Below, one piece after another: positions 8,464 through 21,860 of a DNA stretch of 34,797 nt; positions within the stretch are counted from its first letter, which is position 1; each line of letters starts with the position of its first letter. The notes under the pieces were generated by a model that worked only from the letters and a program-made list of their open reading frames with translations, searched no databases and was not told the origin of the DNA. Made by a program: the position numbers and the translations under genes. This DNA is from Saprospiraceae bacterium (GTDB lineage Bacteria; Bacteroidota; Bacteroidia; Chitinophagales; Saprospiraceae): positions 1 to 34,797 of the forward strand of contig JAIPBL010000069.1 in the NCBI GenBank assembly GCA_021739645.1, in the 5' to 3' direction.

Positions 8464-8988
8464 ATGACAACCATCGAGTTTAATTGCCAATTCAACATCC
8501 TGCAACACAAGCTGTTGCCCTTTGCCTACAGGCTGACCAATAACGTTGAGGACGCAAAGGACCTGATTCAGGAAACCGCCATGCGTGCCTACAACAACAA
8601 AGAAAAGTTCGAATCAGGCACCAACTTTAAGGCGTGGGTCACCACCATCATGCGGAATACTTTTATCAACATTTACCGCAAGAAAAAGAACAGGGCCACC
8701 AGCTCCGAACCTTCGGACAGCTATATTTTCGTCAATGACAAATTCGCTGTGGACAACAATGCCCCCTCCAATATGACCATGGTGGAGCTTGATGGCATCA
8801 TGCACACGCTCGACAATATTTATCGTACGCCATTCCAGCTTTTCTTTGAAGGTTACAAGTACGAAGAAATTGCTGAAAACATGAACCTGCCAATTGGCAC
8901 GGTGAAAAGCCGCATATTCTTCGCCCGGCAAAAATTGAAGGAAACCATCAACTTCAGCTATGCCTACGATACGACCATGTTAAATTAA
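8464..8988 (+). CDS. RNA polymerase ECF-type sigma factor
   Basis: A 174-residue sigma-70 family factor of the extracytoplasmic-function type, which redirects RNA polymerase to a stress or envelope regulon. Region 2 reads LLPFAYRLTNNVEDAKDLIQETAMRAYNN with the core-binding DAxDLxQ motif, then FKAWVTTIMRNTFINIYRKKK for -10 recognition. Region 4 reads YKYEEIAENMNLPIGTVKSRIFFARQKLKE, the helix-turn-helix for -35 recognition. No anti-sigma factor gene follows; a histidine kinase lies downstream. This matches the common Bacteroidota ECF factors that have no adjacent anti-sigma gene. Start at ATG 8464. Confidence 0.95.
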   Translation: MTTIEFNCQFNILQHKLLPFAYRLTNNVEDAKDLIQETAMRAYNNKEKFESGTNFKAWVTTIMRNTFINIYRKKKNRATSSEPSDSYIFVNDKFAVDNNAPSNMTMVELDGIMHTLDNIYRTPFQLFFEGYKYEEIAENMNLPIGTVKSRIFFARQKLKETINFSYAYDTTMLN

Positions 8989-16194: not shown

Positions 16195-17613
16195 TCACAA
16201 TTTGGCAGTAAAACCCAGCAACTCGGCTTCCCGAAACTTGCCCGCCATCAGCTGCACACCCACCGGCAACCCGCATGGATGCTGGCCTATCGGCAATGCG
16301 ATAGCAGGCATTCCGACCATGTTTGCTTGTACGGTAAAAATATCGGCGAGGTACATCGCCACGGGGTCATCCGCCATCTCGCCGATGCTCCAGGCTGGCG
16401 TCGGAGAGGCGGGCATTAGGATAAAGTTAAAGTTTTCTAAAATTGCCTCCGTGCGCTCCAAAATCAGCCGCCGAACTTGCTGTGCCTTGGCGAAATAGGC
16501 ATCGTAGTACCCCGCACTCAGCACGAAAGTGCCCAGCATGATTCGGCGTTTCACCTCCGTGCCGAAGCCCTCCGTCCTCGATTTTTTATACACTTCGTGG
16601 ATGTTCTTCGCCCCCGCTGTCCGGTGGCCAAAGCGGATACCGTCATACCTGCTCAGGTTGCTCGAAGCCTCGGCGGTGGTTAGCACATAATATGCCGGAA
16701 TGATGAAATCGAGGTAGTCGAAGCTCACAGGTTCGACCGTGTGGCCCGCATTTTTCAGTTTTTCAATAAAATCAAAAGTCAGCTTTTTCACTTCTTCGTC
16801 CATGCCGGGGTGATTGAGGGCTTCATCAAAATAAGCAATCCTCTTCGAGCCGCCGAACTCCAGTTCGGCGGAGTGAAAAGGCTTCGCACTTTGGTCGCAA
16901 GTCGCATCAAACTCATCCGACCCAGCCATCACTTCCAACAGCGCCGCCACATCCGCCACCTCATTTGCCAAAATGCCAATCTGGTCAAAACTGGAAGCGT
17001 AGGCCAGCAGCCCGTGCCTCGAAATTCGACCGTAGGTCGGCTTGAACCCGACCACGCCACAGAAGGCCGCTGGCTGTCGCACCGACCCGCCCGTGTCGCT
17101 GCCGATGGAGGCCAGGCAAGTGCCCGCCTGCACCGCTACCGCCGAGGCGCCGCTACTGCCGCCCGGCACCTTCGTGGGGTCGGCGGCATTGCGGGTGGGG
17201 CCGTAGCAGGAGGTTTCATTGGTGCTACCCATGGCAAACTCGTCGCAGTTCACCCGCCCGATGATGATGGCATCCTCGGCCAGTAGCCGCTCCACCGCCG
17301 TGGCACTGAACAGCGATTTGAAGCCTTTCAGAATTTTGGAACCTGCTGTGACCTCGTGTCCGGCGTAGCAGATGACGTCTTTCAGGGAAATGACTGCGCC
17401 GAACAGTTTGCCCACGGAATTGGGTTTTTGCTGGAATTTTTCATCCAATTCCTTCGCCCGCTGCCGGGCTTCATCGGTGAAAACTTCGATGTAGATGTTG
17501 AGGTGCCGGGTCAGCTCGATGCGTTCGAGGTAGTGCTCGACGAGCTGCACGCAGGTGGTCTTTCCTTCTGAAATGGCGGATTGGATGGCGGGGAGGGATG
17601 TTGTAATGGGCAC
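16195..17613 (-). CDS. gatA: Glutamyl-tRNA(Gln) amidotransferase subunit A
   Basis: GatA is the glutaminase subunit of GatCAB, which turns Glu-tRNA(Gln), and in some species Asp-tRNA(Asn), into the correct amidated tRNA. The amidase signature is complete: catalytic Lys in ISLKDVICY, cis-Ser in VPGGSSGASAVAVQ and the nucleophile Ser in GSDTGGSVRQPAAFCG. The frame stays open to a TTG at 17691, but GTG 17613 (read as VPITTSLPAIQSAISEG) aligns best with the usual N-terminus and gives 472 residues; no ATG is available. gatB and gatC are not nearby, as is usual in Bacteroidota where the subunits are often scattered. gltX is in the same window, 15 kb away, and supplies the misacylated substrate if it is non-discriminating. 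Confidence 0.93.
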   Translation of the reverse strand: MPITTSLPAIQSAISEGKTTCVQLVEHYLERIELTRHLNIYIEVFTDEARQRAKELDEKFQQKPNSVGKLFGAVISLKDVICYAGHEVTAGSKILKGFKSLFSATAVERLLAEDAIIIGRVNCDEFAMGSTNETSCYGPTRNAADPTKVPGGSSGASAVAVQAGTCLASIGSDTGGSVRQPAAFCGVVGFKPTYGRISRHGLLAYASSFDQIGILANEVADVAALLEVMAGSDEFDATCDQSAKPFHSAELEFGGSKRIAYFDEALNHPGMDEEVKKLTFDFIEKLKNAGHTVEPVSFDYLDFIIPAYYVLTTAEASSNLSRYDGIRFGHRTAGAKNIHEVYKKSRTEGFGTEVKRRIMLGTFVLSAGYYDAYFAKAQQVRRLILERTEAILENFNFILMPASPTPAWSIGEMADDPVAMYLADIFTVQANMVGMPAIALPIGQHPCGLPVGVQLMAGKFREAELLGFTAKL

Positions 17614-17808
17614 AGCAGAATCTAGTTTAATTGTTTTGACGATAGTTCCCGGTACGCAAATCGGGGCGCAAAGATACCGCCAAGCGGGCAATCATTTTTC
17701 CGTTGTCCGTCATTTTGGGCAACCTGTCAGTGGACATTTCTCCGAAAGTCATTCTCAAAAGCTGTGTCCCACTGTGCTTTTGGTTCACATCTGAGCACTG
17801 GCCTTTTG

Positions 17809-18018
17809 TCAAAAGTGATAGCTGACATTGAAATATCTCAGGTAATCAGAATTGCCAGAAATTTCGGTTCGCCGGTAATTGAACTCCCGTTCGGCTGGCC
17901 CTTCAATGCCCGGCTCGAACCGGTCTTGCCTGTTTTTGATAAAACTGATGGCTGCACCAAAGCTCAATTCATAAGAAAGGCTGAACCGTGGGTGGAAATA
18001 ATATTTGACATCGAAGTC
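17809..18018 (-). pseudogene. C-terminal fragment of an outer-membrane beta-barrel protein
   Basis: The minus strand is open for 69 codons up to the left end of the IS element and ends at TGA 17809-17811. The translation alternates as in membrane beta-strands: DFDVKYYFHPRFSLSYELSF, then FNYRRTEISGNSDYLRYFNV with the final SYHF. The terminal Phe is the classic outer-membrane barrel C-terminal residue recognised by BamA. The 5' part is missing: the IS lies where it should be. The parent family cannot be named from 69 residues. Confidence 0.65.
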
Positions 18019-18035
18019 GTTTAAAAATGATTTGT
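18019..18035. repeat. Left terminal inverted repeat of the IS
   Basis: GTTTAAAAATGATTTGT, exact reverse complement of 18947-18963. Confidence 0.85.
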
Positions 18036-18036
18036 T

Positions 18037-18864
18037 TTAAAAATACTCTGGGTTAACCTTCCTCAGCAAAATCATTGAAAAAGCAATGTAATGGAGGCTC
18101 AGCCAATTCCGAGATGTGGTTTCAAACCGGGTCAAAATGGTCTTGAAAGCGTCAAGCCAAGCGTTCGTCCTTTCTATGGCAAAACGTTCTTTGTACAGTT
18201 CTTCATCCAAAAGATGGTCATAATCTGGCTCTTTTGCATTCCGTTTATTTATATCAACGTTTGCGAATATCCCGAACAGGCCGCACAGTTCCCTGAACGC
18301 CGCACAGTCAAAGCCCGCATCCGCATTTAAAAACAATCCGTTTGTTGAAATGCCGGCGAGCTCCAGGTCGGCGACCATTTTTGTCAGTGCTTTTTTTATT
18401 TCGTACAGGTCATGGTGGTTCCCGGCGACCGGGTCCGAAGCGGTCAGCGGTATGCCCTGCATGTCGCACAAAAAGAGCATGTTCGTCGTTTCGCACTTTT
18501 TCCTGCCCTGATAATCCACGTCTTCCCCGCCCCGTTTGGCTGGGGTATGGCTACCGTCAAATTGGACGCTGGACATGTCAAGGCTGGATTTGTTGATGCT
18601 CAACAGTTTTGTCCAGAGCCTTTTCCATCAGCCATCTTTTGACCACTTGCTGAAATGGTAAAATATTGATTGCCAGCAGGTTAGTATCCTGCTTCAAAAA
18701 TGACCGACCGGCAGTTCCCGCCATTGAGTGCCTGTTTTTGCCCTGTGGATGATGGCCTTGACAATGCGCCACAGCGGGACTTTTGTTCTCCTGCCAAGGT
18801 GTGTTTGGCTTAAATGGGGCAAAAGGTTTTCCGTGATGAACTTCTTGGTTAACTTTACATACAT
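18037..18864 (-). pseudogene. IS5-family transposase with two in-frame TGA codons
   Basis: From ATG 18864 the frame reads MYVKLTKKFITENLLPHLSQ, then an IS5 N-terminal domain up to WRELPVGHF, a TGA at 18694-18696, a block CWQSIFYHFSKWSKDG, a second TGA at 18628-18630, and an uninterrupted C-terminal part of about 196 residues. All segments are in the same frame. The DDE residues appear as Asp in SVQFDGSHTPAKRGGE, Asp in FLNADAGFD and Glu in FAIERTNAWLDAF. Elsewhere in the window TGA acts as a normal stop, so the simplest reading is nonsense decay. The first interruption also lies in a segment that aligns poorly (SRILT), so a small local rearrangement is possible there. Confidence 0.85.
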
Positions 18865-18946
18865 GGTTGCAAAAGATTTTGTTGTTGATGTGAAAACTAC
18901 AACTTAATGCTTTTGCAACTTTTCATTTGCTTCGGTAAAATCTGAC

Positions 18947-18963
18947 ACAAATCATTTTTAAAC
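18947..18963. repeat. Right terminal inverted repeat of the IS
   Basis: ACAAATCATTTTTAAAC, exact reverse complement of 18019-18035. Confidence 0.85.
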
Positions 18964-19110
18964 AACTTCATCATCTCTCCGGTAGGCGAGCGCTTGATGA
19001 AAGGACTGATTGTTTCAAAAAATCATGAGATAGATTTAGCGGGTTTGCCAAAAGGAATGCGCCTGCTCAAAATCGGAAACAAGGGCTATAAAATTGTGAA
19101 AACGGAGTAG
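18964..19110 (+). pseudogene. C-terminal fragment of a T9SS sorting-domain protein
   Basis: Immediately right of the IS the plus strand is open for 48 codons to TAG 19108-19110: NFIISPVGERLMKGLIVSKN, then HEIDLAGLPKGMRLLKIGNK and GYKIVKTE. This is the end of a type A Por-secretion (T9SS) C-terminal domain, whose hallmarks are the SGLPKGMYxLxI strand and the final KxVKx. The rest of the cargo protein is missing. It shows that the organism has, or had, type IX secretion. Confidence 0.75.
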
Positions 19111-19436
19111 TACGTGATACCTCCAATCACTATATTGGTTTTGCTATATGTGCGCAAATAGGTTTTCCCGACCGTCGGTACGGGACAGGTAATGCAAACA
19201 GGGGTTTAGGGCGGAACTCCCCAAATGTAACCCTCCCCCGATGAGCCGCTTCCGCTATTCGGGACGGCGAAGAGGGGCAAAATGTCAAGGAATTTAATTT
19301 ACGCTGTGCTTATTGCCATATTTATGTAACCATCCCATACGACACGACCCTTCCCCTATACGGCTGTTTTCAGTAGGACAAAGTCCCACTGCAAGGTGTC
19401 TGTTGTCAAATTTTTGTCGCAATATGTCGCTAATTT
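19111..19436. other. Intergenic region with two GC-rich hairpins
   Basis: No gene is supported in these 326 bp. Two compact GC-rich imperfect hairpins occur at 19167-19184 (CCCGACCGTCGGTACGGG) and 19237-19263 (CCCGATGAGC paired with GCTATTCGGG). Both end in CGGGAC, so they could be copies of a REP-like element. Confidence 0.4.
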
Positions 19437-21860
19437 TCACCAAACCACCTCCAAACTCTCACCCTGTTTCACCTCCACATCCCAGCTTCCGCCGTCGCCG
19501 CTGACCAATTTGACTGTACCGCCCACCCTCGAAAATACTTTCACTTTAAGCACTTTCCCGTCCTTCCAGTCCATGTCAATCACGAAGCCGCCACGGGCGC
19601 AGAGGCCCTTCACGGAGCCACTTTTCCAGGCATCGGGCAGGGCGGGCAGCAGGTAAATCCGGCGGTCGTCAGACTGTACCAGCATTTCCGCCACCGCCGC
19701 TGCTCCACCGAAATTGCCGTCAATCTGGAACGGCGGATGCGCATCGAAGAGGTTGGGATAGGTGCCGCCGCCTCGTTTCATGTCGGTCTTTTTGCCATCT
19801 GGTGGCACGAAGCGGAGGAGTTCCCGGTACATTTTGTAGGCCCGGTTGCCATCGTGGAGCCTCGCCCAAAGGTTGATGCGCCAGCCCTTCGACCAGCCCG
19901 TAGTCTCGTCGCCCTTGATTTCCAGTGTCTTGCGACAAGCATCGGCCAGTGTGGGCGACTCCTCAGGGGTGATGCTGTGGCCGGGGTGCAGCCCGAACAA
20001 ATGCGACTGGTGGCGGTGCTTCGGGTCTTCATCCTGCCAGTCGTAGAACCACTCCTGGAGGCCGCCCGTCCGGCTGATTTGGTAGGGGTACAGTTGCGCC
20101 AGCGCCGACTGTAACTGCCGCATGAAATCGGCGTCCACGTTCAGTTTTTTTGCTGCCGCAATGTTCTGTGCAAAGCACTCCCGAATCATGGCGAGGTCGG
20201 CAGTGCCACCGTAAAAAGTGGCGCCGTGGTAGCCCTCCAGCGTCACATATTTGTTTTCTGGCGAGGTGCTGGGCGAGGTGATGAGGTACTGCCCCGACTT
20301 GTCCGTCATCAGCCAGCCCAGGCAAAATTCGGCAGCGCCCTTCATCAGCGGGTAGCCCTCGTTGCGAAGCCAAGCCGTGTCCTGCGTGAAGGTGAAATGC
20401 TCCCACAGGTGCGTACTGAGCCAAGTGCCGCCCATGTTCCAGTTTGCCCAAACGGGGTCACCCTTTCCGAAGTCACCAACGGGGTTGCTCATTGCCCAAA
20501 TGTCGGAATTGTGGCAGGCTGCCCAGCCCTTTTCCACGCCATAAAAAGTCTTGGCAGTGACGGCCCCGGTGGTCGCCACGTTTTTGATGAAAGTCAACAA
20601 CGAGCCGTGCATTTCGCTCAGGTTGCAGGTTTCAGCCAGCCAATAATTCTCCTCGGCGTTGATGTTGATGGTGTAGTTGCTGCTCCACGGCGGACGGATG
20701 TACGGGTTCCAGATGCCCTGGAGGTTGGCAGGCACGCCCGGCGTCCGGCTGCTGCTGATGAGTAGGTAGCGCCCGTACTGGAAGTACAAGATTTCGAGGT
20801 TTTTATCCTCGTAGCCTTCAGCGTAGCGCTTGAGGCGCTCGTCGGTAGGCAGAGCTTGTCCCGATCCATCGGGATTGAGGGCATCGGTGGGGCCGAGGTC
20901 GAGGGATACCCGTTTGAAGAAAGTATTGTAATCTTTGAGGTGTGCTTTTCTGAGGTCGGCGTAGGTTTTGCCGCTGGCATTTTTGAGGTTTCGCTTCGCA
21001 ATGGCGGCGCAGTCCTTCCCTTCCGTCACGGGGTCTTTGTCGAAGCCATTGAAACTGGTGGCGATGGAAACGAAGATGATGGCTTCCGTGCCATTGCGCA
21101 AGCCGATGTTGCTGCCATTTTTCACCACCTCGCCGCCCATATTTTTGATGGTAAAAAGGTTGGTAAACTTCGTGCCCCGACCTTCCTCAAACTGAACGGC
21201 ATTGGGCATGTCGCCCCGGTAGCTCGGCTCGGCACGGTAGGGCGCATAGCCGTTCACGGTGAGTATGTTTTCCGTCGGCGAAAGGATGTAGCGCAGTTTG
21301 CTTTTGAAACCAATATCAAAATTAAGCCCCCCCTTTTTGCTGCTCGTCAGCCGGATGACCATCACCGAGTCCGGCGCAGAAATGAAGTATTCCCGCTGGA
21401 ATTTCACCCCGTTCACCTCGTACCGCACCGTGCTCACCGCCTGTTCGATGTCTAGTTCCCGGTAGTAGTTTTTCACCTCGCCTTTTTCATGCTGAAAATT
21501 CAAGTACATCGTGCCAAGCGGGGCAAAGCTCTGCGAGAAGGCGCCTTGCAGGTGCTTGTTCAGGGAGTCGGCGGCGGGGTAGTCCTCGTTGGCCAGTGCC
21601 TCCCGGATGGCGGGCAGCCAGGTGTGGGCATCGGGGTTCATGTCCCGGTCCACCGGCCCGCCCGACCAGAGCGTGGCGTCGTTGAGGAACATGGAATCCA
21701 CGGTCACGCCGCCGAAGACGGAAGCGCCGATGCGGCCATTGCCGAGCACGAGGGTTTCCTCAAAGAACTCGGCGGGGCGGTCGTACCAGAGGGTGTGGGT
21801 GGATTGGGCGTGGGTGAAGTGGCCGACGGCGAGGAGGGACAGGATGAGTGAGATTTTCAT
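19437..21860 (-). CDS. Glycoside hydrolase family 95 protein (alpha-L-fucosidase or related)
   Basis: An exported glycosidase of 807 residues that probably removes terminal alpha-linked L-fucose or L-galactose from polysaccharides. Signal peptide [19 protein letters not shown]. The N-terminal beta-domain opens with [20 protein letters not shown], typical of GH95 (W..PA..W.EALPLGNGRLGAMVFG). Catalytic positions match those known for the Bifidobacterium enzyme: NINAEENYW (two Asn that activate water), Glu in the [11 protein letters not shown] loop and Asp in [20 protein letters not shown]-terminal beta-domain follows. It has no T9SS tail and no lipobox. It is last in a likely three-gene operon with the propeller lipoprotein (70 nt upstream) and a small secreted protein. 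No SusCD pair is nearby. Confidence 0.95.

Follow-up and report, generated by a model that had tools for sequence, protein, structure and literature searches.

How does a single insertion sequence (IS) come to be joined, at its two ends, to the 3' stumps of two different genes? We examined this question at a locus within a window of 34,797 bp, which makes up the whole of contig C73 in a 6.16-Mb draft genome (G000; 147 contigs, completeness 99.68%, estimated contamination 3.33%). The initial annotation of this locus had argued that one simple insertion cannot give two different halves, and had proposed an inversion or a deletion between two IS copies. The first part of that argument held up: the homology of the left stump is not continued across the IS, the half-domain on the right is not continued into the left flank, and the interval coincides with a breakpoint in gene order. 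Regarding the second part, deletion fits the evidence better than inversion, and we give roughly even chances to the locus being the scar of an old IS-mediated deletion. The type of event is well known from textbooks and the locus is an ordinary one; as such, it illustrates cleanly how genes can be lost, and far-apart regions of a chromosome brought together, through IS copies, in a genome whose genes and IS relatives point to the Bacteroidota as its probable group.

A decayed IS5-family element

The relatives of the element were collected by a scan of genome contigs, which gave 72 encoding loci, and the element was bracketed among them by pairs of similar copies. Ten relatives share the tips GAAGTTG (GAAGTTGTTTA) at both IS ends, which sets the window IS at 18013-18969 (957 bp), with its transposase encoded on the minus strand. 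The terminal repeats reported in the initial annotation are indeed present, as inverted repeats of 23 nt at 18013-18035 (plus strand) and 18947-18969 (minus strand) that are 96% complementary, with one mismatch. Such short imperfect terminal inverted repeats, which are common to the relatives, are a trait of the IS5 family, and membership in this family is further indicated by the transposase, which matches both DUF4096 (E 7.2e-9) and DDE_Tnp_4 (E 2.1e-9) above the Pfam cut-offs. The NCBIfam model NF033580 (transpos_IS5_3) matched the transposase in two pieces of 72.6 and 27.1 bits, short of its whole-protein cut-off of 110.

The transposase gene, which combines DUF4096 and DDE regions in a single frame (18037-18864, minus strand), is a pseudogene. 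It is interrupted by premature in-frame TGA stops at 18694-18696 and 18628-18630, which had escaped the initial annotation. At both positions the aligned relatives show a residue or a gap, and some of their transposases also carry stops, at other positions. An active IS5 element has an intact transposase; because the frame here carries two premature stops, the window IS is a dead, decayed copy, provided that the assembled bases are right.

We found no second copy of this IS in the G000 draft assembly, and no other IS end there with 0 or 1 mismatch; the six other matches in G000 have 2 mismatches each, compared with nine matches for a reversed control. A further copy flanked by the missing 5' parts of the two genes, which the initial annotation had suggested looking for, was likewise not found in the assembly. 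As a side observation, the 17-mer TTTCAAAAATGATTTGT is present many times, on many contigs, in G006, where the pattern (at most 2 mismatches) gave 20 matches, compared with 4 for the reversed control. We considered these matches as possible further IS copies and rejected them: among 16 stretches tested from five genomes, 12 of them from G006, none matched the IS as DNA or as protein at E 1e-3. The 17-mer is not an end of the window IS, and in G006 it is probably another repeat.

Remnants of two different genes meet the edges of the IS

To the left of the IS, the minus strand carries the 3' stump of a barrel-like gene (17809-18012), consisting of 67 codons and a stop at 17809-17811, with SYHF as the last residues. 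Its homologues came from a dense search of 398 family genomes at E 0.1, which returned 24 matches: G000 itself, two convincing homologues, in G690 and G571, and 21 weak matches (E > 0.01) that were not used. Residues 2-67 of the stump match the C-terminus of a 273-aa ORF at 43% (E 1.9e-10), and the stump matches the C-terminus of a 317-aa ORF from a second family genome at 31% (E 6.4e-5). No convincing match was found in 13 genus relatives, and no convincing homologue in 24 relatives, where one match at E 0.07 lay inside another protein; among 395 class genomes at E 0.01, only G000 itself was recovered. The initial annotation had described this stump as the end of an outer-membrane barrel. The 3' end is corroborated by the C-termini of the two family ORFs, while the barrel itself is suggested by the strand pattern and the aromatic C-terminus; searches of Pfam, NCBIfam and PDB with the two homologues gave chance-level matches only, with no barrel family or structure.

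The homology of the left stump ends at the edge of the IS. The alignment reaches the second residue, beside the ATC codon next to the element, and homology thereby extends to 18007-18009. Neither the glycine that precedes this point in both homologues nor the strand before it was found across the IS from the stump, and in the IS-free joined site the upstream codons are unlike those of the stump's relatives. In the G000 assembly, the G690 homologue, used as a query, returned the stump only, and the 5' half that the stump lacks was not found there.

To the right of the IS, the plus strand (18973-19110; 45 codons and a stop) appears to encode the 3' half of a C-terminal sorting domain for type IX secretion (T9SS). 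This stump matches the end of the PDB lipase 7pzj (residues 323-365 of 366, E 0.0016), whose C-terminal end would itself be a T9SS tail. Four sorting tails from its own genome (L026, L027 and two in L070) align to it with their second halves; the matches to own-genome sequences are individually weak, with a best E of 0.012. The Pfam profile Por_Secre_tail was matched at positions 41-71 of 75 with 14.2 bits, below its cut-off of 27. The sorting-tail alignment took in the four G000 tails and two from relatives (L058 and L065), and L025, L028 and L029 were excluded. Taken together, these several modest signs favour the T9SS assignment made in the initial annotation, with the lipase and own-genome alignments speaking for it and the Pfam score falling short. 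The first half of the domain, with its YPNP-like strand, is missing at this stump, and the second half does not extend into the left flank. Both stumps are therefore cut at the IS edges, as had been claimed, with homology running up to the element on the left and the sorting domain broken mid-domain on the right.

We also considered whether the left flank, read on its plus strand, could be the first half of the T9SS domain. The codon usage of this flank does not tell its two strands apart, and in the empty site the plus frame of the joined flanks is open across the joint. This reading was rejected: the Por_Secre_tail match starts to the right of the joint, the joined frame scores 12.4 bits compared with 14.0 for the right half alone, and on its opposite strand the left flank shows homology to other proteins. 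NCBIfam gave no match to the joined frame and likewise none to the right half alone, and is hence uninformative on this point.

The IS lies at a breakpoint in gene order

The left neighbour of the locus is an amidase gene that we take to be gatA (16195-17691, minus strand), which has orthologues in 13 of 13 genus relatives and forms the edge of the left syntenic block. The right neighbour, at the edge of the right block, encodes a glycoside hydrolase of family 95 (GH95; 19437-21860, minus strand), which matches Pfam Glyco_hydro_95_cat at E 1.3e-172 and also has orthologues. The left block spans six genes, gatA through the gene at 8464. Its order is collinear with that of the window in G003 and G008, and it is kept in part in G007 and G012 (four genes) and in G006, G011 and G013 (two genes). 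The GH95 block is loosely collinear in G003, G006 and G013, with extra DNA between the genes, and in G008 the only right-block gene found was GH95 itself. In all six relatives with a GH95 copy of more than 80% identity, gatA and GH95 lie on different contigs; judged by contig positions, the distance between the two genes is at least 215 kb in G003 and at least 122 kb in G008, with G005, G011 and G013, drafts of 620 to 930 contigs, being too fragmented for such an estimate. In the relatives, what lies left and right in the window corresponds to separate blocks, and the IS interval is a synteny breakpoint in the genus, in line with the argument from two different halves.

Several rearrangements are needed to account for the gene order of the genus, and not all of them touch the window IS. 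The gene that we take to be pheS lies within 2 kb before gatA in 8 of the 13 genus relatives; it was not found near gatA in G002, G004, G009 and G010 (within 1.5 kb around) or in G011 (within the 9.4 kb of L067). In G000 this gene is located on a different contig (C89, L070 2504-6376), directly before a presumably thrA-like gene. Because pheS sits on this other contig without the window IS beside it, at least one breakpoint is unexplained by that IS.

Two further observations concern the same region. In G013, the gatA orthologue on contig C852 (L066 1568-2876) is split into two frames, by a frameshift or an assembly error. Parts of the intergenic stretch at 19152-19304 belong to a dispersed short repeat: they are found again, at 71-91% identity, elsewhere in G000 (L013) and in genus relatives (L006, L007, L009, L010, L016, L019 and L020).

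A 3-bp flanking repeat and its chance rate

Once the IS ends are placed by the relatives (GAAGTTGTTTAAA), the triplet ATC abuts the element on each side, at 18010-18012 and 18970-18972, and this 3-bp direct repeat is a candidate target-site duplication. The statement in the initial annotation that no target duplication is evident thus has to be withdrawn for ends set in this way. A short target duplication, of 3 bp in this subgroup, is a trait of IS5 elements, and equal 3-bp flanks occur in 8 of the 12 relatives in which both ends are readable. These 12 include L082 and L084, whose IS ends were set by hand, and are not fully independent, as L073 and L075 are two copies from a single genome, and the similarity between L071 and L072 is 93%; left out of the count were L100, which has the pattern ends but is not the IS, L083, which is without perfect ends, and L081, whose contig stops one base past the IS.

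Before a simple insertion is claimed, however, the repeat needs to be weighed against the rate at which such matches arise by chance. Cross-pairs of unlike loci had equal triplets in 11 of 132 cases (8.3%), and under the pooled composition the triplet ATC has a probability of 5.7%. The repeat accordingly favours simple insertion by a factor of only about ten and, because unlike copies match by chance in 6-8% of cases, does not decide the mechanism. The product of a deletion between two IS copies would be expected, though not by definition, to have unlike flanking triplets, whereas here they are the same. A target duplication had been named in the initial annotation as the sign that would speak for simple insertion; it is present in a weak form, and it keeps that explanation alive.

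How the locus may have arisen

In the explanation that we prefer, two copies of one IS5-family element would have been present in the same orientation, one in the barrel-like gene and one in the T9SS-tail gene, with the two genes divergently oriented. The intervening DNA, both 5' parts included, would have been lost when the copies recombined homologously; an adjacent deletion by the transposase is a less likely route to the same outcome. One IS would have been left, joined to both 3' stumps, and would then have decayed by two nonsense mutations. A single hybrid copy is what recombination of direct IS copies is expected to leave. We infer the former second copy, its orientation, the recombination mechanism and the coincidental nature of the 3-bp match. 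The explanation accounts for a single IS lying between stumps from different genes (the right one identified by modest scores), for the left 5' half and a second copy being absent from the draft assembly, for the gene-order breakpoint, and for the way in which the left homology and the sorting domain each stop at an IS edge. Counted against it are the matching flanks of the element, as in most of its relatives, the gene order of the genus, which is shuffled anyway and has the pheS breakpoint away from this IS, and the relatives, among which none was seen with both genes intact and divergent and none of the 13 in the genus gave a convincing match to the left gene. Two copies in opposite orientation could instead have undergone an inversion, which would place the second copy and both 5' parts elsewhere and would likewise yield two different halves and a gene-order breakpoint. 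It should also have produced a reciprocal junction, and we prefer deletion because neither a second IS, nor another IS end with at most 1 mismatch, nor the left gene's 5' half was found in the assembly; an inversion is accordingly improbable.

The main competitor of deletion is that the IS simply inserted where two gene remnants were already joined, duplicating 3 bp of target. The ATC repeat abuts correctly placed ends and has the length seen in the relatives, and the region could have consisted of remnants beforehand, given that none of the 13 genus relatives gave a convincing match to the left gene. The joined flanks, with the IS removed, continue the homology of neither stump. Against this explanation, the earlier junction must be placed at most about 9 bp from the insertion point, as the left homology reaches 18007-18009 and the T9SS half starts at about 18973. 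By our own estimate this is a coincidence of about 2%, assuming 500 bp of remnant and spacer DNA. Under simple insertion, the triplet match thus has a weight of about 0.67 and the position of the junction one of about 0.02, whereas recombination between copies accounts for the stump ends without further assumption and leaves the triplet match to chance, at 0.06-0.08. This weighing favours recombination about four- to sixfold, and we consider simple insertion unlikely, though far from negligible. It is very improbable indeed that a fresh recombination junction was the exact target of the IS, which then made its regular 3-bp duplication there; the coinciding stump ends combined with the matching triplets are the only support for this. 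If it were true, joints left by break repair might attract this IS5 group. The junction could also be a chimera of assembly, with two IS copies from the sampled population merged into one and flanks connected that do not belong together. The number of contigs and the estimated contamination of the draft leave room for such an error, and the flanking triplets are compatible with it. Yet the IS lies inside a 34.8-kb contig, while 45 of the 72 relative loci have a match starting at most 68 bases from a contig end; the IS is single in the assembly and carries two stops, the 5' half of the left gene is on no contig, and for gatA as well as for GH95 the most similar copy is found in one and the same relative, G013. 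We therefore regard a chimera as distinctly unlikely.

Comparison with known systems

The IS5 relatives of the element come from Labilibacter, Carboxylicivirga, Draconibacterium, Thermonema and a Saprospiraceae MAG. The window IS resembles them in size, in its single transposase frame, in its 3-bp flanking repeat and in inverted repeats that in most of them start with GAAGTTGTTTAAA; it differs from them in its two premature stops, its one inverted-repeat mismatch and its single copy. Compared with NF033580, it scores below the cut-off and as two pieces.

Recombination between IS copies leads to deletions or inversions, depending on the relative orientation of the copies, according to the part of the paper by Ling and Cordaux (2010, PMC3004938) drawn on here. 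Set against ectopic IS recombination as described in that part, the locus stands out by its matching triplets, which recombination does not predict.

A second comparison is offered by Amoebophilus asiaticus, whose IS5-family elements ISCaa2, 3, 6, 8 and 9 (881-991 bp) were judged inactive (PMC3196728). In the portion of that report considered here, 101 of 122 full-length IS copies of all families are without direct repeats, the IS5-family elements are listed without them, and the authors see no recombination between IS copies. The window IS departs from the A. asiaticus copies, as they are presented in that portion, on both counts: a 3-bp repeat is present, and recombination between copies is the origin that we propose.
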